This document shows, in pieces, positions 7,815-27,233 of a DNA stretch of 48,955 bases (the first letter of the stretch is position 1; every line of letters starts with the position of its first letter). Location of the stretch: contig CALWUY010000028.1 in the NCBI GenBank assembly GCA_944384855.1, forward strand, positions 1-48,955. The letters run 5' to 3'. Made by a program: the position numbers and the translations under genes. The DNA is from an uncultured Clostridia bacterium. Lineage in GTDB: Bacteria; Bacillota; Clostridia; Oscillospirales; Acutalibacteraceae. The notes under the pieces were generated by a model. That model worked only from the letters and a program-made list of their open reading frames with translations. It was not told the origin of the DNA and made no database searches.

Positions 7815-7896
7815 AGCTTTTGGTTCTTTGTGACTGACGGATAAGCGGATGACCGCGTGGAGCAAAGAACATTATGCCGACCGTCTGGGCACACTG
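7815..7896 (+). ncRNA. ZTP (pfl) riboswitch
   Basis: The leader contains the conserved pfl pattern: GTGACTGACGG near 7830, a small hairpin, GCGTGGAGC, a closing stem (GGTTCTTTG with CAAAGAAC), then the downstream CCGACCGTCTGGGCA (7878-7891) that forms the pseudoknot side. This class binds ZMP/ZTP, the purine intermediate AICAR ribotide and its triphosphate, and turns genes on when 10-formyl-THF is short. It precedes purE and the whole purine and one-carbon operon, the classic location. Confidence 0.9.
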
Positions 7897-7927
7897 TATT
7901 CATTTTATGGATTAGTGCGCCTTTTTT
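7886..7927 (+). terminator. Riboswitch-controlled intrinsic terminator
   Basis: GGGCAC at the end of the riboswitch can pair with GTGCGCC (7915-7921), followed by CTTTTTT. The 5' arm overlaps the conserved pseudoknot bases, so ligand binding and termination exclude each other, giving an ON switch by ZTP. Confidence 0.75.
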
Positions 7928-7952: not shown

Positions 7953-8447
7953 ATGAAAAAGATCGGAATTATTATGGGAAGCGACAGCGATCTGCCTACT
8001 GTTTCAAAAGCAGCCGATACACTCAGAAGTTTCGGCGTCCCGTATGAAGTACATGTTTTTTCCGCACACAGAACACCTGCGGAAGCAAAAGAATTCAGCG
8101 CAAACGCGCGCAAAAGCGGTTTCGGAGCAATCATAGCCGCAGCAGGTATGGCGGCGCATTTAGCCGGAGCCATAGCCGCTAATACTACCCTGCCTGTAAT
8201 AGGCATACCGATAAAATCAGGAAATCTGAACGGTATTGACGCCCTTCTATCAACTGTGCAGATGCCATCGGGTATCCCCGTAGCAACAGTCGCAATTGAC
8301 GGTGCCGTTAATGCCGCTTTATTATGCGTGCAGATACTTGCGGTTACTGACTGCGAACTTGCTCAGAAGCTTGATGAAAAACGCCGCGCAGATTCGCAGA
8401 AGGTACTCGATAAAAATTCCGCAATAGAAGCGCAGTTTAATATTTAA
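7953..8447 (+). CDS. purE: 5-(carboxyamino)imidazole ribonucleotide mutase PurE
   Basis: Makes CAIR in de novo purine synthesis (from N5-CAIR in class I enzymes). 164 residues, starting MKKIGIIMGSDSDLP, with the GSDSD phosphate-binding motif at about 9-13 and SAHRTP at about 42-47 carrying the conserved histidine. AAAGMAAHLAGA is the second active-site loop. The start is ATG 7953 after GGAGG. It is the first gene behind the ZTP riboswitch. No purK is present in the window, so whether it acts on N5-CAIR or directly on AIR and CO2 cannot be decided here. Confidence 0.96.
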   Translation: MKKIGIIMGSDSDLPTVSKAADTLRSFGVPYEVHVFSAHRTPAEAKEFSANARKSGFGAIIAAAGMAAHLAGAIAANTTLPVIGIPIKSGNLNGIDALLSTVQMPSGIPVATVAIDGAVNAALLCVQILAVTDCELAQKLDEKRRADSQKVLDKNSAIEAQFNI

Positions 8448-8464
8448 CCCACGGGAGGATCATT

Positions 8465-9889
8465 ATGGGAGGCTATTTTGGAGCTGTCTGCAAATCAGAC
8501 GCGATATATGATGTTTTTTTCGGTACGGATTACCATTCACACCTCGGTACACGCCGCGCAGGCATTGCCGCTTACGACAGCGAAATAGGTTTGCAGCGGG
8601 AAATCCACAATATTGAAAACTCGCCTTTCAGGACAAAATTTGAAGATGTTTTCGATGAAATGAAAGGTTTTGCCGCAATCGGCTGTATAAGCGACTACTA
8701 TCCGCAGCCGCTGCTTATCCGCTCTGATATAGGCACATACGCTATATGCGTAATAGGAATGGTAAACAATTCCGAAGAGCTTATAAACAGATACCTCTCG
8801 TCCGGAGGAGGTCATTTTGAAGCTATGACCGGCGGTAAAGTAAATACCACTGAGGTTGTAGCGGCACTTATCAATCAGAAAAGCAATTTTAACGAAGGTA
8901 TTAAATTTGCACAGGATTCAATTGACGGCTCGGCTTCCATACTGATTCTTACGGATTACGGTTCAATTATCGCCGCCAGAGACAAATTCGGAAGACTTCC
9001 GATACTTATAGGAAAAAACGATGAAGGATACTGTGTTTCCTTCGAGTCGTTCGCATATTTGAAATTAGGTTATCAGGATGAAAAAGAACTTGGTCCGGGA
9101 GAAATTGTCGAACTTACGGCTGACCGGATGACACAATTGTCTGCACCGGGAAACAAAAAGCGTATCTGCGCTTTTCTGTGGAGTTATTACGGATATCCCA
9201 CCTCTTGCTATGAGGGTAAAAATGTTGAAGTCATGCGGTACAGAAACGGCAAAATAATGGCGCAGCACGATAAAGAAGCGGGACTGGCTCAAAGCATTGA
9301 TTACGTCGGCGGGGTTCCCGATTCCGGAACACCGCACGCAATCGGATACGCCAACGAAAGCGGCAAGGATTTTGCCCGCGCTTTTATCAAATACACTCCC
9401 ACATGGTCGAGAAGCTTTATGCCCACAAAACAGAAAGAACGCAACAAAATCGCTAAAATGAAGCAGATACCGGTCCATGACCTAATAACCGATAAAAACC
9501 TGCTTTTTGTTGACGACTCTATAGTACGCGGCACACAGCTTAAGGAAACGGTTGATTTTCTTTATTCAAACGGAGCTAAAAAAGTACACATGCGTTCTGC
9601 CTGTCCGCCTATTATGTACGGATGCAAATATCTCAACTTTTCACGCGCCACTAACGATATGGAGCTGATTGCCCGCAGGACTATTATGGAACTTGAGGGC
9701 GAGGAAGGTTTTAATCACATCGAAGAATACAGTGACTCTTCTACCGAACGCGGCCAAAATCTCAGAAAAGCGATATGCCGGAAATTCAATTTTGCCACAC
9801 TGGAATTTCAGTCGCTCGAAGGTATTGTAGAGGCCATAGGTCTCGATAAGTCAGAACTGTGCACTTACTGCTGGGACGGTAAAGAATAA
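8465..9889 (+). CDS. purF: PurF-like amidophosphoribosyltransferase without a glutaminase nucleophile
   Basis: Homologue of the first committed purine enzyme (PRPP to phosphoribosylamine), 474 residues. The phosphoribosyltransferase domain is intact: LLFVDDSIVRGTQL puts the PRPP loop at residues 349-356. Four cysteines match the Fe4S4 ligand pattern of Bacillus-type PurF (C235, C387, C466, C469). The N-terminal Ntn-glutaminase domain is altered: the protein starts MGGYFGAV where active enzymes have Met-Cys-Gly; GHxRYxT is replaced by GCISDYY, and the oxyanion HNGNLVN by VIGMVNN. The start is firm (GGGAGG before ATG 8465). It may use free ammonia or a partner; no second purF is in the window. 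Confidence 0.9.
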   Translation: MGGYFGAVCKSDAIYDVFFGTDYHSHLGTRRAGIAAYDSEIGLQREIHNIENSPFRTKFEDVFDEMKGFAAIGCISDYYPQPLLIRSDIGTYAICVIGMVNNSEELINRYLSSGGGHFEAMTGGKVNTTEVVAALINQKSNFNEGIKFAQDSIDGSASILILTDYGSIIAARDKFGRLPILIGKNDEGYCVSFESFAYLKLGYQDEKELGPGEIVELTADRMTQLSAPGNKKRICAFLWSYYGYPTSCYEGKNVEVMRYRNGKIMAQHDKEAGLAQSIDYVGGVPDSGTPHAIGYANESGKDFARAFIKYTPTWSRSFMPTKQKERNKIAKMKQIPVHDLITDKNLLFVDDSIVRGTQLKETVDFLYSNGAKKVHMRSACPPIMYGCKYLNFSRATNDMELIARRTIMELEGEEGFNHIEEYSDSSTERGQNLRKAICRKFNFATLEFQSLEGIVEAIGLDKSELCTYCWDGKE

Positions 9890-9903: not shown

Positions 9904-10941
9904 ATGAACAATTCTCAGTCAAAATCATACGCGGATGCCGGAGTTGACATTACCGCCGGCTACAAGGCAGTAGAACTTATGAAACAGCACATCAAAAGAA
10001 CCAGAAACGAAGGCTGTATAGATGACATCGGAGGTTTCGGAGGCTGTTACAGTATCCCTAAAGGCATGGAAGAACCGGTACTTGTAAGCGGCACCGACGG
10101 ATGCGGTACAAAGGTCAAATTGGCAATACTGCTTGATAAGCACGATACTATTGGGGTAGACGCGGTCGCGATGTGCGTTAATGACATTATATGTTCGGGC
10201 GCGAAACCGATGTTTTTTCTTGATTATATAGCATGCGGTAAAAATGTTCCCGAAAAGATTGCAGAAATAGTCAGCGGAGTCGCCGAAGGCTGCGTTCAGT
10301 CTGGTGCGGCGCTGATAGGCGGCGAAACCGCAGAGCATCCTGGCATGATGCCGGAAGAAGACTACGACCTTGCCGGCTTTGCGGTCGGAATAGTAGATAA
10401 AAAGAAAATACTCGACAATTCCCAAATGCAGGAAGGCGATGCTGTTATCGCGCTTGCTTCGTCGGGTGTTCATTCCAACGGTTTTTCGCTTGTAAGAAAA
10501 GTGTTTGACGTTGAGAATTGCGACCTTAATAAAACCTATGATGAATTAGGCGGAAAAACGCTTGGAGAGACACTGCTTACACCCACTAAAATTTACGTCA
10601 AACCCGTGCTTGACCTGATTGATAAAGTAAAGGTACACGCAATATCACATATAACAGGCGGAGGCTTTTATGAAAATATCCCGCGGAGCATACCTGACGG
10701 TTTTGCGGCGGAAATAGACAAAAAGAGCATTAAGGTTCTTCCGATATTCGACCTGATTGCAAAAGCGGGAAACATACCCGAAAGAGATATGTATAACACA
10801 TTCAATATGGGCGTAGGTATGAGTATTGTGGTTGCAAAAAACGACGCCGAAAAAGCGCTTGAAATCTTAAAATCGGACGGCGAAGACGCATATATTATCG
10901 GAAAAATCATAAAATCAGACAGTAAAATTTCTATTATATAG
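9904..10941 (+). CDS. purM: Phosphoribosylformylglycinamidine cyclo-ligase (AIR synthetase)
   Basis: Closes the imidazole ring: FGAM + ATP to AIR. 345 residues, the normal length. It shows SYADAGVDI at the N-terminus, GGFGGCYSIP, the ATP-binding VSGTDGCGTKVKLA, the signature VDAVAMCVNDIICSGAKP and ALIGGETAEHPGMM. The C-terminal domain carries HITGGGFYENIPRSIPDG. AGGAGG lies just before ATG 9904, and the gap after purF is 14 bases, so it is in the same operon. Confidence 0.98.
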   Translation: MNNSQSKSYADAGVDITAGYKAVELMKQHIKRTRNEGCIDDIGGFGGCYSIPKGMEEPVLVSGTDGCGTKVKLAILLDKHDTIGVDAVAMCVNDIICSGAKPMFFLDYIACGKNVPEKIAEIVSGVAEGCVQSGAALIGGETAEHPGMMPEEDYDLAGFAVGIVDKKKILDNSQMQEGDAVIALASSGVHSNGFSLVRKVFDVENCDLNKTYDELGGKTLGETLLTPTKIYVKPVLDLIDKVKVHAISHITGGGFYENIPRSIPDGFAAEIDKKSIKVLPIFDLIAKAGNIPERDMYNTFNMGVGMSIVVAKNDAEKALEILKSDGEDAYIIGKIIKSDSKISII

Positions 10942-10951
10942 GGTGATTTTA

Positions 10952-11539
10952 ATGAAAAATATTGCCGTATTGGTATCCGGCGGCGGAACTAACCTTCAGG
11001 CCCTGATAGACGCGCAGCAAAACGGAATTTTAAAATCCGGTAAAATAAATCTGGTTATTTCGAATAATCCCGACGCTTACGCGCTTGAGCGCGCTGAAAA
11101 AGCCGGTATAAAAGCCGTTGTATGCAGCAAAAAGGACGAAGGATCGAATTTTGAGGACAAGCTTATTGAAATTCTGCATTCCGAAAAAACCGACGTAATA
11201 GTTCTTGCCGGTTTTATGTGCATACTGAGTGAAAAATTCACGTCAGAATTCACGGACCGCATAATAAACGTACATCCGTCACTTATACCGTCGTTCTGCG
11301 GAAAAGGATTTTACGGACTGAAGGTACATAAGGCCGCATTGGATTACGGAGTCAAGGTTACGGGAGCGACAGTTCATTTTGTGAATGAAGTTCCGGACGG
11401 CGGTAAAATCATAATGCAGAAAGCCGTAGAGGTAAAAGACGGCGACACTCCCGAAATTTTACAAAAACGGGTGATGGAAGAAGCTGAATGGAAAATACTT
11501 CCCCTATCTCTTGAAAAGGTTTGTTCGCAGCTTAAATAA
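10952..11539 (+). CDS. purN: Phosphoribosylglycinamide formyltransferase (GART)
   Basis: Transfers the formyl group of 10-formyl-THF to GAR. 195 residues starting MKNIAVLVSGGGTNLQALID. The catalytic set is visible: the Asn of the VISNN segment, the His of INVHPSLIPSF, and the Asp of VTGATVHFVNEVPDGG in family alignment. The ATG at 10952 follows AGGGTGA; a GTG nine bases upstream lies within that site and is rejected. It follows purM by 10 bases. Its folate substrate can be supplied by fhs and glyA downstream. Confidence 0.97.
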   Translation: MKNIAVLVSGGGTNLQALIDAQQNGILKSGKINLVISNNPDAYALERAEKAGIKAVVCSKKDEGSNFEDKLIEILHSEKTDVIVLAGFMCILSEKFTSEFTDRIINVHPSLIPSFCGKGFYGLKVHKAALDYGVKVTGATVHFVNEVPDGGKIIMQKAVEVKDGDTPEILQKRVMEEAEWKILPLSLEKVCSQLK

Positions 11540-11563: not shown

Positions 11564-12292
11564 ATGGCGTTATATGATTTGAAAACTTTACTCAGTGAGA
11601 ATACATACCCCGGAAGAGGTATTGTAATCGGTAAATCGGCAGACGGCAAAAAAGCAATGACCGCTTATTTCATAATGGGCAGAAGTGAAAACAGCCGCAA
11701 CCGCATTTTTGAAAAATTCGAAGGCGGAATGCGTACAAAGGCATTTGACGAAAGCAAGCTGTCAGATCCATCACTTATAATTTACAATCCTTATCTGAAG
11801 CTCGGACAAATTGATATTATTACCAATGGTGACCAAACCGATACAATATATGACCATATAAGAGAACATGGCGATGACGGGTTTGCATTTGAAGAAGCTT
11901 TATCTATGCGTGAATTTGAACCTGACGCGCCTAACTATACCCCCCGCATTTCCGGTATACTGTATTACTGTTTTCCTAGAAATGTATTTACATACAAACT
12001 TTCGATTATAAAAAGCTCAAACGGCAGACCGGAAGCTTGCAACCGTTATTTCTATCACTATACACCGGAAAACGGTATAGGTCACTTTATACACACTTAT
12101 AAATGTGACGGCAATCCGATCCCCTCTTTCAGCGGCGAACCCGAAGAGGTTGCGCTTCCAAACACTGCCGAAGAACTGGCTGATTTGATATGGGAAAATC
12201 TGAATGCCGACAATAAGGTTTCCTTATTTGTCAGAACAGTAGAGCTTGACAGCGGTAAGGCGAAAGAAATAATAATAAACAAAAATAAATAA
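11564..12292 (+). CDS. purO: IMP cyclohydrolase, PurO-type
   Basis: Closes the second purine ring (FAICAR to IMP). The 242-residue protein resembles the IMP_cyclohyd (PurO) fold first known from archaea and present in some Firmicutes, and not the N-terminal domain of PurH. Features: an N-terminal NTYPGRGIVIGKSADGKKA, AYFIMGRSENSRNR, an RISGILYY segment and the YFYHYTPENGIGHFIHTY stretch. The position right before a stand-alone AICAR transformylase fits this job: together the two genes replace bifunctional PurH. The family call rests on recognised pattern, not on a search. Confidence 0.85.
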   Translation: MALYDLKTLLSENTYPGRGIVIGKSADGKKAMTAYFIMGRSENSRNRIFEKFEGGMRTKAFDESKLSDPSLIIYNPYLKLGQIDIITNGDQTDTIYDHIREHGDDGFAFEEALSMREFEPDAPNYTPRISGILYYCFPRNVFTYKLSIIKSSNGRPEACNRYFYHYTPENGIGHFIHTYKCDGNPIPSFSGEPEEVALPNTAEELADLIWENLNADNKVSLFVRTVELDSGKAKEIIINKNK

Positions 12293-12303
12293 GGAGAATG
12301 AGT

Positions 12304-13488
12304 ATGAAAGAATTTGAACTTAAATACGGCTGCAATCCAAACCAAAAACCATCAAAAATATTTATGGATGACGGCAGTGATCTTCCGATTGAAATTCTTT
12401 GCGGAAAGCCCGGATATATTAATTTTCTTGACGCTTTCAACTCTTGGCAGTTAGTAAAAGAACTCAAAGAAGCATTGGGACTTCCGGCAGTAACCTCTTT
12501 CAAGCATGTAAGCCCTACCAGCGCGGCTGTAGGGACGGTACTTCCGGAAAAGCTTAAAAAAGCCTGCTTTGTTGACGATATAGAAGGATTAGACGATTCT
12601 CCTTTAGCCTGTGCATACGCCCGGGCACGCGGCACTGACCGTATGTGCTCTTTCGGCGACTGGGTAGCTTTATCGGACGTATGTGATGTAACAACCGCAA
12701 AGCTTATTAAGCGTGAGGTATCCGACGGTATTATAGCTCCCGGCTATGAGCCTGAAGCGCTTGAAATTCTGAAATCAAAAAGAAAAGGCAGTTACAATAT
12801 AGTAAAAATCGATCCTGATTATACTCCCGCTCCTATTGAGCATAAACAGGTTTACGGCATAACCTTTGAGCAGGGCAGAAATAACTTTAAAATAGATGAG
12901 GCACTGCTTTCAAACCTGGTGACAGAAAATAAAAATCTGCCTGATTCCGCAAAACGCGACCTTATAATTTCCCTTATAACTTTGAAATATACACAGTCAA
13001 ACTCAGTATGCTTTGCGGTCGACGGTCAGGCTATCGGAGTGGGCGCGGGTCAGCAGTCAAGAATACACTGCACAAGACTTGCAGGCTCTAAAGCGGATAC
13101 ATGGTTTTTGCGCCAGCATGAAAAGGTATTAAATCTTCCCTTCCTTGATGAAATTGCACGTCCCACAAGAGATAATGTAATAGATGGTTATATCAACCGC
13201 AACGAAGAAGACGTCTGTGCAGACGGCAACTGGCAGAAATATTTTAAAACCCAGCCTTCTCCCCTTACAGATGAAGAGATAAAGGAATATTTATCGGGCA
13301 TCACCGGAGTATCGTTGGGTTCCGACGCTTTCTTCCCGTTTGACGACAATATTGAGCGCGCTTTCAGAAGCGGAGTGTCTTACATAGCCGAGCCCGGAGG
13401 TAGCATACGCGATGACGCCGTTATTGACTGCTGCAATAAATACGGCATTGCTATGGCATTTACAGGTATGAGATTATTCCATCATTAA
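12304..13488 (+). CDS. AICAR transformylase (PurH C-terminal-type, monofunctional)
   Basis: Formylates AICAR with 10-formyl-THF to FAICAR, the penultimate step to IMP. 394 residues, matching the transformylase half of PurH without its cyclohydrolase half. SFKHVSPTSAAVG near residues 65-77 holds the catalytic Lys-His pair, and NSVCFAVDGQAIGVGAGQQSR is the conserved folate/AICAR site. FRSGVSYIAEPGGSIRDDAV is the C-terminal signature. AAGGAG lies seven bases before ATG 12304; the ATG at 12298 is only one base from it and is rejected. It follows purO by 11 bases. Confidence 0.95.
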   Translation: MKEFELKYGCNPNQKPSKIFMDDGSDLPIEILCGKPGYINFLDAFNSWQLVKELKEALGLPAVTSFKHVSPTSAAVGTVLPEKLKKACFVDDIEGLDDSPLACAYARARGTDRMCSFGDWVALSDVCDVTTAKLIKREVSDGIIAPGYEPEALEILKSKRKGSYNIVKIDPDYTPAPIEHKQVYGITFEQGRNNFKIDEALLSNLVTENKNLPDSAKRDLIISLITLKYTQSNSVCFAVDGQAIGVGAGQQSRIHCTRLAGSKADTWFLRQHEKVLNLPFLDEIARPTRDNVIDGYINRNEEDVCADGNWQKYFKTQPSPLTDEEIKEYLSGITGVSLGSDAFFPFDDNIERAFRSGVSYIAEPGGSIRDDAVIDCCNKYGIAMAFTGMRLFHH

Positions 13489-13508: not shown

Positions 13509-14747
13509 ATGAATTTTTTTGAAGAACTTAAAAATTATGACCCGGAAGTTGCAAAAGCATGTGATATGGAGCTTGAACGCCAGCAGCATAATATTGAGCT
13601 TATAGCGTCTGAAAATATTGTTTCAAAAGCAGTTTTGCTGGCGGCAGGCGGAGTGCTTACAAACAAATATGCCGAAGGATACCCGTCGAAGCGTTATTAC
13701 GGCGGCTGCCAATGCGTTGACATTGTAGAGGAAATCGCCAGAGAGCGTGCCAAAAAGCTCTTCGGCTGCAATTTTGCAAATGTTCAGCCGCACAGCGGCG
13801 CCAATGCCAACCTTGCCGCATTTTTCGCGCTGATTCAGCCGGGCGACACAGTTATGGGCATGAATTTGCAGCAGGGAGGTCACCTGTCGCACGGATCACC
13901 GGTAAATATTTCCGGTAAATATTTCCATATTGTACCTTACGGCGTAAACAGTGAAACCGAGACAATAGATTACGACGAAATGCGCAGAATTGCCCTTGAA
14001 TGCAAACCAAAACTTATTGTTGCGGGCGCTTCCGCCTATTCAAGAATAATCGATTTCCCCCGCTGCCGTGAGATTGCCGATGAGGTCGGAGCTTATTTAA
14101 TGGTGGATATGGCGCATATTGCCGGTCTTATAGCGGCAGGATTGCATCCGTCGCCGATACCATACGCGCATGTCGTAACCACAACTACACACAAAACACT
14201 CCGCGGACCCAGGGGCGGTATGATCCTTTGCAACGACGAGGAGATATATACAAAAATCAACAAAGCAGTCTTCCCCGGCACACAGGGCGGTCCTTTAATG
14301 CATATAATCGCCGCTAAAGCCGTTGCTTTAGGCGAAGCGCTTACTCCTGAGTTTAAGGCTTATCAGGAGCAGGTAATCAAAAACGCCGCTGCGCTTTGTC
14401 AGGGTCTTATAGACGAAGGCCTCAAAATTGTTTCAGGCGGTACCGACAACCATCTCATGCTCTTAAATCTTGCAGACAGCGGTATAACCGGCAAAGAACT
14501 TGAGCACAGGCTGGACGAAGTTCATATTACTGCCAACAAAAACACTGTTCCCAATGATCCGCAAAGTCCGTTCGTTACAAGCGGAGTGCGCTTAGGTACT
14601 CCGGCGGTTACCACGCGCGGTTTCAAAGAAACCGAAATGAAAACCATAGCTCAGTGGATAGGCGCGATAGTAAACGATTATGAACCGCATAAGGAATATG
14701 TATCCGCAGCTGTTCAGGAGCTTTGTTCCAGATTCCCGATTTATTAA
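13509..14747 (+). CDS. glyA: Serine hydroxymethyltransferase
   Basis: PLP enzyme converting serine + THF to glycine + 5,10-methylene-THF, the main one-carbon entry. 412 residues, standard length. The PLP lysine is K229 in [28 protein letters not shown] and [11 protein letters not shown] are N-terminal signatures. In this operon it supplies glycine for PurD and one-carbon units for the folate pool used by PurN and the transformylase. Spacing to the preceding gene is 20 bases with a good AAAGGAG. Confidence 0.98.
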
Positions 14748-14821: not shown

Positions 14822-16102
14822 ATGAAAGTAATGGTAGTTGGCGGCGGCGGCCGTGAACACGCAATAATTAAAAAATTGAAACAAAGTCCCGAAATCACCA
14901 AACTTTATGCCCTGCCCGGCAACGGCGGCATGAAAGACGATGCTGAATGCATTGATATAGGTGCAAAAGATATTGCTAATATCGTAAAATTCGCTGTAGA
15001 TAATAAAATCGACTATGCAGTCGTAGCTCCGGACGATCCGCTGGTATTAGGCGCAGTGGACGCTCTGAATGAAGCCGGTATCGACTGTTTCGGGCCAAAA
15101 AAGAATGCCGCAATAATTGAAGGCAGCAAAGTTTTTTCAAAAAATCTTATGAAAAAATACGGCATTCCTACGGCAGAATACGAAGTTTTTGACAGCGCAG
15201 AGGCTGCGCTTAAATACCTTGAAACCGCCCCGATACCCACAGTTATAAAGGCTGACGGACTTGCGCTCGGCAAAGGAGTAATTATAGCAGAAACCCGTGA
15301 AGACGCCAAAGCGGCAGTCGTTTCCATCATGGAAGACAAGATGTTCGGAGAAAGCGGTAATAAAATAGTAATAGAAGAATTTTTGACCGGTCCGGAAGTA
15401 TCGGTACTGTCATTTACCGACGGCAAAACGATAGTTCCGATGGTTTCTTCAATGGATCATAAACGTGCACTTGACGGCGATCAGGGACTTAATACCGGAG
15501 GTATGGGTACCATTGCCCCGAATCCGTTTTATACTCAGGAAATAGCGGATACATGCATGAAAACTATTTTTCTTCCTACGGTTGAAGCTATGAACAAAGA
15601 AGGCAGAACATTTAAGGGATGTCTTTATTTCGGACTTATGATAACAGAAAAAGGGCCCAAGGTTATAGAATACAACTGCCGCTTCGGTGACCCGGAAACG
15701 CAGGTGGTTCTTCCGTTGCTTGAAAGCGACCTGTTTACTGTTATGAAATCTGTAACCGACGGTACACTTGCAGATACCGAAGTCAGATTCAGCAGCGGTG
15801 CCGCCGCCTGTGTGGTTATGGCTTCAAAAGGATATCCGCAGAAATACGAAAGCGGATTTGACCTTAATATAGCTAACTGTGTTGCCGATAACGTATATGT
15901 AGCCGGAGCAAAGCTTGTTGACGGCGTTTTAAAGACCGCGGGCGGCAGGGTACTCGGCGTGACAGGCAAAGGCGCGACCCTTTCAGAAGCGATTGACAAA
16001 GCATACGAAAATGTAGGATACGTAAGTTTCAAAAATGCTTTTTACCGCAAGGACATAGGACAGAAAGCGCTCGGCAAAGCCGGTGCTTCCAAAGGAGAAT
16101 AA
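14822..16102 (+). CDS. purD: Phosphoribosylamine--glycine ligase (GAR synthetase)
   Basis: ATP-grasp ligase joining phosphoribosylamine to glycine. 426 residues starting MKVMVVGGGGREHAI; AAGGAG precedes ATG 14822, so an upstream in-frame ATG at 14786 is not used. ATP-grasp features include VIKADGLALGKGVIIAET and the signature RFGDPETQVVLPLL. It consumes the product of the PurF-like enzyme and the glycine made by GlyA, two genes of the same operon. A short GC hairpin at 14759-14781 precedes it without a T-run. Confidence 0.98.
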   Translation: MKVMVVGGGGREHAIIKKLKQSPEITKLYALPGNGGMKDDAECIDIGAKDIANIVKFAVDNKIDYAVVAPDDPLVLGAVDALNEAGIDCFGPKKNAAIIEGSKVFSKNLMKKYGIPTAEYEVFDSAEAALKYLETAPIPTVIKADGLALGKGVIIAETREDAKAAVVSIMEDKMFGESGNKIVIEEFLTGPEVSVLSFTDGKTIVPMVSSMDHKRALDGDQGLNTGGMGTIAPNPFYTQEIADTCMKTIFLPTVEAMNKEGRTFKGCLYFGLMITEKGPKVIEYNCRFGDPETQVVLPLLESDLFTVMKSVTDGTLADTEVRFSSGAAACVVMASKGYPQKYESGFDLNIANCVADNVYVAGAKLVDGVLKTAGGRVLGVTGKGATLSEAIDKAYENVGYVSFKNAFYRKDIGQKALGKAGASKGE

Positions 16103-16104
16103 TA

Positions 16105-19100
16105 ATGGTATACCGTATATTTGTAGAAAAGAAAAAGGAATTGGCCCACGAAGCAAAATCACTTTTTAAAGACATAACCGACCTGTTACAGATTTCTTCG
16201 GTAACTGATGTAAGAATCATTAACAGATATGATGTTGACCGTATAGAAAAAGCACTTTTTGATTATGCAGTAGGTACTGTTTTTTCGGAGCCACAGCTTG
16301 ATATCGTGTCTGACAGCATCGATACAGGATCTGCAGCAGTGTTTGCCGTAGAATATCTTCCGGGACAGTTTGACCAGCGCGCAGATTCTGCCGCGCAGTG
16401 TATACAGATAATATCTCAGGGTGAACGTCCGAGGGTACGCACAGCTAAGGTTTATCTGTTATACGGTAATATAAGCGACAGCGAACTTGCCGCCGTTAAA
16501 AAATACGTTATAAACCCGGTCGAAGCAAGAGAAGCGTCTTTGGATAAACCCGAAACGCTTGAAACCAAATACGACATACCGACCGAAGTGGAGACTCTCG
16601 TCGGTTTTATAAACTTAAACAGACAGCAGCTTGAGGAGTTTGTAAATAAATATTCTCTTGCAATGGACGCTGATGATATTGCCTTTTGTCAGCAATATTT
16701 TATATCAGAACACCGTGACCCCACAATCACCGAAATCAGAATGATTGACACCTATTGGTCGGACCACTGCCGTCATACTACGTTTCTGACTAATATTGAT
16801 GATGTTATATTTGATGATGAACTATTGCAGTCGGCTTATGACGAATACATAAATACCCGCAAAGCTCTCGGCAGGACCAAGCCGGTTTGTCTGATGGATA
16901 TTGCAACTCTTGCGGTCCGTCAGCTTAAAAAAGACGGTAAACTTGATAAGCTGGATGAATCAGAAGAAATCAACGCCTGCACAGTTAAAATCAATGTAGA
17001 TGTTGACGGTAAAACGGAGCCTTGGCTGCTGCTCTTTAAAAACGAAACCCATAACCATCCGACTGAAATCGAGCCTTTCGGAGGAGCTGCCACCTGCATA
17101 GGCGGAGCGATCCGCGATCCGCTTTCAGGCAGAAGCTACGTATACGGCGCAATGCGTGTAACCGGCGCCGCAAATCCTTTGAAAAGCGTAAAAGAAACAA
17201 TGCCAGGCAAACTTCCGCAAAGGAAAATTGTCACTACAGCGGCAGACGGATATTCATCATACGGAAATCAAATCGGACTTGCCACAGGTATAGTTGATGA
17301 AATCTATCACGAAGGATATGCCGCAAAACGCATGGAAATAGGCGCCGTAATTGCCGCGACACCCGCAGAAAACGTGCGCCGGGAAGTTCCCGCACCGGGA
17401 GATGCGGTTATACTTTTGGGAGGTTCTACCGGTCGTGACGGCTGCGGAGGAGCTACGGGTTCTTCCAAATCGCATACAGTTCAATCTCTTGAATCCTGCG
17501 GTGCGGAGGTTCAAAAAGGCAACGCGCCGGAAGAAAGAAAGCTGCAGAGACTTTTCAGAAATCCTGAGGCCTGCAGAATGATCAAACGCTGCAACGATTT
17601 CGGTGCCGGTGGCGTTTCGGTTGCTATAGGAGAATTAGCCGACGGGCTTGAGATCGACCTTAACGCCGTTCCGAAAAAATACGACGGTCTTGACGGAACA
17701 GAGCTTGCAATAAGTGAGTCACAGGAAAGAATGGCTGTCGTTATCGAGAAGGAAAACATCGACCGTTTCCTCGAAATAGCAAAATCCGAAAACCTTCAGG
17801 CTGTAAAGGTAGCCGAAGTGAAATCCGAACCGAGACTTGTTATGAACTGGAACGGAAATACCATAGTCAATATCAGCCGTGAATTCTTAAATTCCAACGG
17901 CGCCGAAAAGCATATTACGGTAACTCCTGAAAAACCTGAGAGATATACAAAGACTGTCAGCGGCGGATTTGCCGAAAATATGAAAGCTTTGGCAGATGAC
18001 CTTAACATTTGTTCAAAGCGCGGACTTTCAGAGCAATTTGACTCGACAATAGGCGCCGGTACGGTTCTAATGCCTTTCGGCGGAAAAAATCAGCTTACTC
18101 CCATACAGGCTATGGTACAGAAAATTTCTGTCGAGAAAAGACATACCGACGACTGCTCTTTAATGGCGTGGGGCTATAATCCGTTTATAGCCGATAAAAG
18201 TCCTTATCACAGCGCATATCTGGCAGTGGTGGAATCGGTTTCCAAACTTATATCATGCGGCGCCGAATTCAAAGATGTATATCTTACTTTCCAGGAATAT
18301 TTTGAGCGTCCCGGAAAAGACAGAAAACGCTGGGGCAAACCGCTTTCGGCATTACTTGGCGCTTTCAAGGCTCAGCTTGAATACGGTATCGGCGCAATAG
18401 GCGGAAAAGACTCCATGAGCGGTACTTTTGAAAATCTTGACGTACCCCCTACCCTTGTCTCGTTTGCGGTCACAACAGATAAAACATACAATATAATTTC
18501 ACCCGAATTCAAAAAGGCAGGAAATAAAGTATTCCTAATCTGCCCTATTTACGACAGGGAAACCAATCTCCCGAACACCGAATCTCAGATTAAGGTATTC
18601 AGAAGAGTGACTGAGCTTATCCGCAGCGGCAAAGCAGTATCGGCTTATACCCCCGGCCTCGGAGGTATAGGAGAAGCGATTATGAAAATGTGCTTCGGTA
18701 ACTCTTTGGGCTTCAAGTTTGACCAAAATATGTGCGTTCAGGGCGTATTTGATTACTGTTACGGAAGCTTTCTGCTTGAATCTGATGAAGATATTGAAGA
18801 CGCGCTTTATATCGGCACTGTCACAAATGACGGTGAAATCAGCCTGAAAGACGAAAAGGTTTCACTGATAAAGCTTCTTGATATATACGAAGGAAAGCTT
18901 GAAAGCGTTTATAAATGTAATATTAAGCAGACCGGTTCAATGACGGAACAATTTGCTTATACTTCTCAGTCCCGCGTTTCGCCCGCAGTCAAAACCGCAA
19001 AACCGAAAGTGCTTATACCGGTGTTCCCGGGTACAAACTGCGAATATGACTCGGCAAAAGCCATGCAGGACGCCGGCGCCGAACCCGAAATTTTTGTTAT

Positions 19101-19797
19101 CAACAATCTTACCGCCGACGGTATTGCCCGTTCTGTCGAAAATTTTGCAGAAAAGATAAAATCTTCACAAATCATCTTTATTCCGGGCGGATTTTCGGCC
19201 GGCGATGAGCCTGACGGAAGCGGCAAATTCATTACGGCATTCTTTCGCAACGCTGCGGTTAAGGAAGAGGTTACCGCTCTGCTTGAAAGCCGGGACGGTC
19301 TTATGTGCGGTATTTGCAACGGTTTTCAGGCACTTATCAAATTAGGACTTGTTCCGTACGGTAAAATTATTGATACCGATGAAACCTGCCCTACCCTAAC
19401 ATTCAACACCATAGGACGCCATCAGTCTAAAATAGTCCGTACAGTAATATCATCAAACAAGTCCCCGTGGCTCAGTCTGACTAATGTAGGTGAAATATAC
19501 AGTGTGCCTATTTCACACGGAGAAGGACGTTTCTTGGCAAACGAAAGCCTGATCAAAAAATTAGCCGAAAACGGCCAGATTGCGACGCAGTATGTTGATC
19601 TTGACGGAAAAGTCACAAGCGATGTCAGATATAATCCAAATGATTCAATGTACGCCATTGAAGGAATTACCTCACCGGACGGACGTGTATTCGGCAAAAT
19701 GGGACACAGCGAACGCTGGGGCAAAGGCCTTTATAAAAACGTTCCGGGTAACTATGATATCAGAATGTTCGAATCAGCGGTAAAATACTTTAAATAA
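16105..19797 (+). CDS. purL: Phosphoribosylformylglycinamidine synthase, single-chain
   Basis: Converts FGAR to FGAM using glutamine. The 1230-residue protein is the fused form (PurS-like N-terminus, two AIRS-like halves, C-terminal glutaminase), as in many Clostridia, not the split PurS-PurQ-PurL of Bacillus. [20 protein letters not shown] is the ATP-site signature near residue 315. The glutaminase nucleophile is C1071 in CGICNGFQ, with the SHGEGRF histidine region downstream, so this amidotransferase keeps its glutamine site, unlike the PurF of the same operon. The gap to purD is 2 bases. Confidence 0.97.
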
Positions 19798-19808: not shown

Positions 19809-21485
19809 ATGGCATATTTATCAGATATTGAAATCGCTCAGCAGGCTGAAATGCGACCTATAACCGAAATTGCTGCAGCCGCCGGAATTGAAGAAAAGTA
19901 CCTTGAGCAATACGGGAAATACAAAGCGAAGATAGACCTCTCTCTCTTAAATGAATGCAGGAAAGAAAACGGCAAGCTGGTACTTGTAACCGCTATAACC
20001 CCCACTCCCGCAGGAGAAGGAAAAACCACAACTACTATAGGCCTCGCCGACGGTATGAAGCGCATAGGAAAAAATGTTTGTGTCGCTTTGCGGGAACCCT
20101 CATTAGGCCCTGTTTTCGGAATAAAAGGCGGAGCCGCAGGCGGCGGTTACGCTCAGGTAGTACCGATGGAAGATATCAACCTTCATTTCACCGGTGACTT
20201 TCACGCAATAGGTGCTGCAAATAACCTGCTTGCCGCCATGCTTGACAACCATATTCATCAGGGTAACGCTTTGGGCATTGATACCCGCAAAATCACCTGG
20301 AAACGCTGCGTAGATATGAATGATCGTCAGCTTCGCTTTATAACGGACGGTCTCGGTGGTAAAGCTAACGGCGTACCGCGCGAGGACGGGTTTGATATAA
20401 CAGTAGCGAGTGAGGTTATGGCGGTACTCTGTCTCGCTTCTGATATCGACGACCTTAAAGCGAGGCTTTCAAAAATAATTGTTGGTTATACATTCGATGA
20501 CGAACCTGTAACGGCCGGTCAGCTAAAAGCGGCAGGAGCTATGGCTGCACTGCTTAAGGATGCCATAAAACCGAATTTAGTCCAAACACTTGAAGCTACC
20601 CCTGCATTGGTACACGGAGGTCCGTTTGCCAATATCGCCCACGGGTGCAATTCGGTAACGGCTACAAAAATGGCTGTTAAACTCGCAGACTATGCCGTTA
20701 CGGAGGCCGGATTCGGCGCAGATTTGGGAGCCGAAAAATTTTTAGACATCAAATGCAGAATGGCCGGATTAAAACCTTCAGCAGTTGTAATAGTAGGCAC
20801 GATCCGCGCCCTTAAAATGCACAGCGGTCTTGACAAAAAGGAACTCGACCGAGAAAACCTCGAAGCCCTTGAAAAAGGTATACCGAATTTACTGCGACAT
20901 GTTTCGAATATCAAAAATGTATATAAGCTTCCCTGCGTGGTGGCAATAAACAGATTTCCCACTGACACTGTCAGCGAAATAGATTTTATTATTTCAAAAT
21001 GCAGAGAGCTTGGAGTCAATACTGTCTTATCAGAGGTATGGGCGAAAGGCGGAAAAGGCGGAGAAGAGCTTGCTAGAGAGGTTGTCCGCCTTTGCGAAGA
21101 AGATAACAGCAACTTCTCTTTCAGCTATGAGCTTAACTGTTCAATTGAAGAAAAAATAGATGCCATTGTCAAGAAAGTTTACGGCGGAAAAGGCGCGGTG
21201 CTCACTCCGAATGCAAAAAAACAAGCGCAGAAGCTTACGGATATGGGATTCGCGGGCTGCCCGGTATGTATGGCAAAAACACAGTACAGTTTTTCTGACG
21301 ATATGTCCAAATTAGGTGCACCCGATGATTTTACCGTCACGGTAAGAAATCTTAAAATATCCGCAGGCGCAGGTTTCATAGTGGCGCTCACAGGCGACAT
21401 TATGACTATGCCGGGACTGCCTAAGATTCCAGCTGCAGAAAACATAGATGTAGACAACAACGGAAAAATTACCGGACTGTTTTAA
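19809..21485 (+). CDS. fhs: Formate--tetrahydrofolate ligase
   Basis: Makes 10-formyl-THF from formate, THF and ATP. 558 residues, the usual length, with the nucleotide-binding [19 protein letters not shown] at residues about 64-82 and [20 protein letters not shown], both typical of FTHFS. Last gene of the purine operon, 11 bases after purL. It directly provides the folate cofactor for PurN and the AICAR transformylase, and ZTP signals lack of that cofactor. No other acetogenesis gene is present, so an ordinary one-carbon role is likely. Confidence 0.98.
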
Positions 21486-26967: not shown

Positions 26968-27233
26968 TTAAAAAAGCGTCTGTTCATCCTAAATACATCA
27001 GGACGAATAGACGCATCTTTCGCGGTGCCACCTAATTTACCGTGTTTTAAAACACAGTCACTCAAAACGGATTTAACGCATCCCTACGACGCCCCTACTA
27101 ACTGAAAATTTTCGGTTTGCAGCTCCAAAGTGTTATTCATATTGCACGATGATCGTGTTTCCACCGCCGCACGACTCTCTCTCCACCGCTTACAATACTA
27201 CTTCTCTTTATCATAGCCTATTTTATGTTATTA
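26968..27233 (-). promoter_or_regulatory. T-box leader (asparagine type) of asnS-asnA
   Basis: On the minus strand the T-box core is AGGTGGCACCGCG (RC of 27021-27033), a near-consensus; UGGC fits a tRNA with discriminator G, as tRNA-Asn has. An AAC codon (GAATAACACTTTGG) in the Stem I region is the likely specifier. AGGGGCGTCGTAGGGATGCG lies between Stem I and the antiterminator. The leader ends in a strong terminator. Uncharged tRNA-Asn should turn on asparagine synthesis and charging together. Confidence 0.88.
26969..27014 (-). terminator. T-box attenuator hairpin before asnS
   Basis: On the minus strand GCGTCTATTCGTCCT pairs with AGGATGAACAGACGC, loop of about 15 bases, followed by six T. 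It lies between the T-box core and the asnS ribosome site. Confidence 0.9.

Follow-up and report, generated by a model that had tools for sequence, protein, structure and literature searches.

PurF homologues without the catalytic cysteine form a conserved family in Clostridia and may start purine synthesis from free ammonia

The window analysed here is a stretch of 48,955 nucleotides, contig CALWUY010000028.1 of an uncultured Clostridia bacterium of the Acutalibacteraceae (assembly GCA_944384855.1). It contains a purine operon headed by a ZTP riboswitch, in the order riboswitch, purE, Cys-less purF, purM, purN, purO, part of purH, glyA, purD, purL and fhs. The purF slot is thus occupied by a gene for a PurF homologue that has no catalytic cysteine, here called the variant. 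The features are as follows.

7820..7897, + strand: ZMP/ZTP riboswitch aptamer, leader of the pur operon (Rfam RF01750, 60.9 bits, gathering score 39)
7953..8447, + strand: purE (PF00731, 210.4 bits; ATG start)
8465..9889, + strand: variant, Cys-less PurF homologue of 474 amino acids (ATG start, N terminus MGGYFG)
8468..8470, + strand: codon for Gly2, in the place of the catalytic N-terminal Cys of PurF (from the sequence, aligned to the canonical Cys)
9167..9169, + strand: Cys235, Fe-S ligand position 1 (kept in 94/94 variants)
9389..9406, + strand: KYTPTW, a family mark in the PRPP flexible loop, where canonical PurF has K-N-R-Y (61/66 homology-picked variants)
9509..9532, + strand: PRPP loop VDDSIVRG (DDS[IV]VRGT in 94/94, DDS[IV]VRGTQ in 65/66)
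9623..9625, + strand: Cys387, Fe-S ligand position 2 (kept in 94/94 variants)
9860..9871, + strand: Cys466 and Cys469, Fe-S ligand positions 3 and 4 (kept in 94/94 variants)
9904..10941, + strand: purM (PF00586 and PF02769)
10943..11539, + strand: purN (PF00551, 163.1 bits; named by eye and place)
11564..12292, + strand: PurO-type IMP cyclohydrolase (PF07826, 200.7 bits)
12298..13488, + strand: PurH, AICAR transformylase part only (PF01808, profile positions 75-311 of 311; "transformylase only" by eye)
13509..14747, + strand: glyA (PF00464, 581.6 bits)
14822..16102, + strand: purD (TIGR00877, 522.2 bits)
16105..19797, + strand: purL, long form, with its own glutaminase Cys (GICNGFQ, Cys 1071; from the ORF and motif, named by eye)
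19809..21485, + strand: fhs, formate-tetrahydrofolate ligase (PF01268, 909.4 bits)

The riboswitch precedes purE, and the variant is therefore likely to be expressed with a folate-purine signal. IMP formation is split in this operon between the archaeal-type PurO cyclohydrolase (11564-12292) and the transformylase-only PurH (12298-13488). Elsewhere in the window there is a T-box leader at 26996-27223 on the minus strand (RF00230, 118.7 bits).

The variant begins 17 bases after the end of purE. Its start was originally predicted to be fixed by a ribosome site, and this is borne out by GGGAGG six bases 5' of the ATG. The in-frame sequence upstream reads stop-YLTHGRII. Brown et al. found missed starts in three archaeal genes (excerpts of PMC3261824); here that explanation is ruled out, since the upstream frame contains a stop and no Cys, and a missed start cannot restore the nucleophile.

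Motifs and a fold match of 422–428 residues to PurF indicate that the variant retains the type I phosphoribosyltransferase domain with its PRPP loop, and also the Ntn domain, which is strongly conserved. In order to follow the active sites through the family, an alignment was made of 94 variants and 28 canonical PurF proteins (those recovered from 31 canonical rows, two of them with a mis-trimmed N terminus). In this alignment, where the N termini of the variants were located by a pattern permitting G, S or A, the canonical Cys column is occupied by Gly in 89 variants and Ser in 4, and is cut off in 1; the window protein has Gly2. GHxRYxT, HNGN and the Asp of TSDTE, which we take to be the glutamine-binding residues of PurF, are lost as well. 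The original prediction described the first two motifs as replaced. This describes HNGN correctly, its H and both N being substituted in the 94 variants; GHxRYxT is instead deleted, with gaps at R, Y, T and G of GHxRYxTxG in 94/94, and in the window protein GCISD joins the chain where the loop is missing. The T-D-T-E region has lost its Asp.

The synthase side of the protein is intact, as had been predicted. All 94 variants conserve the motif DDSIVRGT (with I or V) together with C235, C387, C466 and C469; by the retention of these four cysteine positions the protein would be expected to bind an Fe-S cluster. Because 78 of the 94 had been selected by the KYTPTW pattern, the motif counts were repeated on a set picked by homology only. 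Here position 2 is Gly or Ser at 61 of 63 loci (the match begins later in the other two), and of 66 proteins 65 contain DDS[IV]VRGTQ and all 66 contain PDSG. The flexible loop reads KYTPTW in 61 of the 66, KYNPTW in 2, KYTPAW in 1 and KYTPSW in 1, with no match in 1, and the Thr-Thr that follows the PRPP loop in canonical PurF is Thr-Gln. A pseudogene is ruled out by this conservation in both sets. Loss of the glutaminase site and retention of the PRPP and Fe-S sites are constant across the family, and the alignments thus argue that this is a conserved family state, neither chance nor decay.

The window protein scores 168 bits against TIGR01134, for which the cut-off is 350. By three defining features (no Cys, no glutamine loops, and a score under the family cut-off) its sequence classes it as PurF-like and outside the glutamine-dependent family (EC 2.4.2.14, TIGR01134).

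The original prediction had raised the case that this is the only PurF of the organism, and proposed a search of the rest of the genome. That search found a canonical PurF on contig C37 (C37:20285-21622; 503.7 bits to TIGR01134), so that the premise is wrong for the window genome. If the nearest ATG is the start, six residues precede its Cys; GHVRYGTTG, HNGN and all the other glutamine motifs are present. The two proteins are only 30% identical, and their genes occupy different clusters. By family match, the neighbours of the C37 purF are carA, pyrG, glmS, guaA, purB, gdhA, amtB, a GOGAT domain and an ANTAR-domain protein (PF03861); further neighbours named by eye are carB, gltD-like genes, purA, purC, asnB and two glutamine synthetases, one of type III and one scoring below the NCBIfam GlnA cut-off. 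The surroundings are therefore a nitrogen-assimilation and amidotransferase cluster.

The variants form a separate clade with 100/100 support, which lies on a long branch relative to canonical PurF and which the tree indicates to be old. In a sample across the phylum, the variant occurs in 17 of 299 genomes, all with a further, weaker PurF match, as is the case for 12 of 12 carriers outside the window organism's own class. The class was sampled with 393 genomes, each at least 90% complete, and 116 of these carry the variant. TIGR01134 was used to test 80 of the 116 carriers for a PurF over cut-off: 47 have one (dual genomes) and 33 do not (variant-only genomes). The 33 are every carrier in the class sample with a single PurF match, and the 47 were hand-picked from the other 83 carriers. 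In the remaining 36 a canonical PurF is presumed from the homology matches of the class sample; one of them, G599, has two variant fragments and no canonical match. For comparison, 44 canonical-only genomes were hand-picked across families from the 233 that have a PurF match and no variant.

Most of these genomes are draft MAGs, in which absence can reflect an assembly gap. The variant-only genomes include G500, which is a single contig and 99% complete, and G675, which is in two contigs, and genus g267 is variant-only in all four genomes sampled. In the tree of 64 variant proteins, strongly supported branches require at least 12 changes of the variant-only state. The variants of G500 and G675 (L168, L181), whose genus has no canonical PurF, have unusually long branches (0.59-0.64), perhaps through faster evolution after loss of the partner.

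A pattern scan of a contig database, with F[IV]KYTPTW as one of two patterns, gave at least 582 confirmed stretches with the variant. The 80 matches listed from these are Clostridia or Bacillota by title, and many are named after cecum, colon, rectum or rumen. The variant is also present in the named strains Criibacterium bergeronii CCRI-22567 (L108) and Flavonifractor sp. An112 (L114), and Bacteroidales records contain homologues at 48% identity. Two annotated variant records, of Bacteroides finegoldii and Peptoclostridium acidaminophilum, are both named amidophosphoribosyltransferase.

The operon in relatives has the order purE-(purC)-variant-purM-purN-purO-purH-purD-purL. At 24 of 63 variant loci purM lies within the retrieved stretch; these loci are pur operons in which the variant is preceded by purE or purC and followed by purM. 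In three of the 24 (G270, G455 and G637) a canonical PurF lies between or beside these genes. The two PurF genes are together in G464 as well, and in these four genomes this speaks against separate regulation. In the draft genome G412, which is 6% contaminated, there are two purine operons, one with the variant and the other with a canonical PurF (L183, L190).

The adjacency in G270, G455 and G637, and the presence of both genes in the window genome, would suit a regulatory partner that has no catalytic activity and assembles with canonical PurF into mixed oligomers. We regard this as very improbable, since 33 genomes have the variant without a canonical PurF over cut-off, the PRPP loop, the Fe-S ligands and PDSG (66/66) are conserved, and the two PurF proteins of the window genome share only 30% identity.

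Neighbouring genes were clustered using six ORFs on each side, at 58 of 65 variant loci (the other seven have no ORF passing the overlap rule). The recurrent neighbours are purC (11 loci) and carB (7 loci); purC in relatives rests on an ORF cluster of which one representative was identified by eye. At 39 of the 63 loci there is no purE or purM nearby. These are mostly more distant members of the family, with some close ones, and among the 30 largest neighbour clusters at the 58 loci no partner gene is conserved beside variants that lie outside the pur operon. In B. finegoldii (L229) and P. acidaminophilum (L230) pepT lies directly 3' of the variant, with gcvT too in the first; pepT has no match at the other variant loci compared, though the linkage is common to these distant phyla.

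The 39 loci away from purine genes, together with the altered flexible loop (KYTPTW in 61/66) and the Thr-Gln after the PRPP loop, could be taken to mean that the variant transfers another amine or uses PRPP in a side reaction, with phosphoribosylamine formed by other enzymes or by a non-enzymatic reaction of ribose-5-phosphate with ammonia. This is doubtful in our opinion, and quite improbable. The variant fills the slot between purE and purM in genomes that have no other PurF (G311, G340, G362, G500, G556 and others); in full, the pur-operon place is seen in 11 variant-only genomes, which also include G404, G493, G539, G585, G600 and G675. Moreover, 31 of the 33 variant-only genomes have a purD over cut-off, whose product consumes phosphoribosylamine, and none of the 33 has a PurF over cut-off to supply it.

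If the variant uses free ammonia, then variant-only genomes should be without the genes needed at low ammonium. The ammonium transporter gene amtB (TIGR00836) was found in 3 of 33 variant-only genomes (G460, G493 and G585) versus 40 of 47 dual genomes (p = 4e-12). The contrast persists in a permutation test within families (p = 8e-5) and when whole families are compared (2/18 vs 17/20, p = 1e-5). Of the 36 further carriers, 33 have amtB, including the doubtful G599. The gene is found in 21 and absent from 23 of the 44 sampled canonical-only genomes, so that its absence is not special to the variant. GOGAT was found in 6 of 33 variant-only versus 42 of 47 dual genomes (p = 1e-10). It was called by PF01645 at E below 1e-50, a limit that we set because PF01645 also matches other proteins weakly, and a GOGAT fragment at a contig end in G570 was scored as absent. 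A control, the phosphate permease gene pstC, gave no clear contrast (14/33 vs 28/47, p = 0.17). AsnA, used as an ammonia marker, showed no difference between variant-only and canonical-only genomes (21/33 vs 27/44). The association with PurF state is correlative, at the level of lifestyle and gene repertoire.

A similar contrast is seen for carA, which encodes the glutaminase subunit of carbamoyl phosphate synthetase and is over cut-off in 14 of 33 variant-only versus 45 of 47 dual genomes (p = 9e-8; the dual set here comprises 44 of the 47 and three other dual genomes). This leaves 19 variant-only genomes without carA; in 11 of them carB was looked for, and all 11 have it. It lies near the variant in G339, G362, G421, G539, G568, G600 (where it is cut by the contig end) and G668, and in separate stretches in G312, G404, G429 and G556. 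In G421 it stops just 28 bases 5' of the variant (L161:5730-8972), and in G312, G339, G362, G404, G429 and G556 it adjoins pyrimidine genes named by eye. Full-length carB in a genome without carA over cut-off is seen at L161 (G421), L173, L179 and L231-L234, and is a possible ammonia-dependent bacterial carbamoyl phosphate synthetase. In E. coli, CarB forms carbamoyl phosphate from ammonia at a very high and likely unphysiological level of the latter, according to excerpts of PMC6245113; if general, this need would count against CarB acting alone. Glutamine use appears not to be abandoned as a whole, since PurL keeps its glutaminase Cys in 5/5 variant-only loci with the motif inside the retrieved stretch.

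These observations bear on the original proposal that a sole PurF of this kind must use free ammonia or borrow it from another glutaminase. Among the relatives, 33 of the 80 carriers tested are of this kind, with no PurF over cut-off. In the second case, the variant would make phosphoribosylamine with ammonia from a separate glutaminase that docks on it, as PurQ does for PurL. The conserved Ntn domain could be the docking surface, and the cell contains a PurL with a fused glutaminase in the same operon, as well as GuaA. We nevertheless consider docking unlikely, given that no free-standing glutaminase was seen by eye in the 30 largest neighbour clusters at 58 variant loci, and that variant-only genomes are often without carA, a free glutaminase subunit that is being lost, not gained. 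Free ammonia fits better, since no such glutaminase stood out among the recurrent neighbours.

We therefore favour free ammonia, and consider it likely that the variant is an ammonia-dependent PRPP aminotransferase, which would act alone where ammonia is always plentiful and elsewhere beside a glutamine-dependent PurF. This would account for the loss of the glutaminase site beside an intact synthase site, for genomes in which the variant is the sole PurF, and for the missing low-ammonium genes. The Ntn domain would no longer hydrolyse glutamine, and the phosphoribosyltransferase domain would make phosphoribosylamine from PRPP and free NH3. In the window genome, the glutamine-dependent PurF would carry purine synthesis when ammonium is scarce, and the variant would serve when it is plentiful, sparing glutamine. 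Relatives that apparently live at permanently high ammonia would have lost the glutamine-dependent PurF, and often CarA too, so that free ammonia would supply the committed steps of purine and pyrimidine synthesis alike. We infer both the catalysis with NH3 and the division of labour by nitrogen state from gene sequences and gene content.

More broadly, and here we lean towards the idea, there may be a guild of gut and rumen Clostridia with a glutaminase-free sole PurF and a CarB-only carbamoyl phosphate synthetase, mostly without AmtB and GOGAT, whose nucleotide metabolism is obligately tied to high ammonia, with dual-PurF species keeping the glutamine route for nitrogen shortage. In the open-licence literature we found no description of the bacterial family, which other papers may describe, and no published assay of its members. 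Expression support was sought for Prevotella ruminicola, whose purF genes are not named in the excerpts of PMC5552732.

Bacterial purine synthesis, in textbook form, begins with glutamine. A widespread PurF that starts from ammonia, alone in many genomes, would if true change models of nitrogen use in the gut and rumen, and the step should then be insensitive to glutamine analogues. The database name amidophosphoribosyltransferase can hide two enzymes.

With canonical PurF (B. subtilis 1gph/1ao0, Arabidopsis 6lbp, E. coli 1ecf) the family has in common the whole fold over 422–428 residues, the PRPP loop, the Bacillus-type positions of the four Fe-S cysteines, PDSG and the place in the pur operon. 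It differs in having no N-terminal Cys, a deleted glutamine loop, no HNGN, a different flexible loop, a separate long-branch clade and a TIGR01134 score under the cut-off. A parallel with an unrelated fold is CarB without CarA, compared here because carA was not found in 19 of 33 variant-only genomes: both would be synthetases working on ammonia without a working glutaminase, as is human CPS1 in urea synthesis. In E. coli PurF, changing the Cys to Ala or Ser abolishes the use of glutamine and keeps that of ammonia (Mei and Zalkin 1989, cited in PMC3261824). That is an engineered single change, whereas the bacterial family is natural and has the whole site remodelled. The nearest precedent, compared by description, is the crenarchaeal PurF', like the variant a Cys-less PurF paralogue near purine genes, for which an ammonia-dependent PRPP aminotransferase activity was proposed and, in the excerpts of the paper, left as a proposal (Brown et al. 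2011, PMC3261824). PurF' is archaeal and paired with PurF, each crenarchaeon in that study having one of each, while the bacterial family also occurs alone and offers a tractable counterpart to the archaeal proposal.
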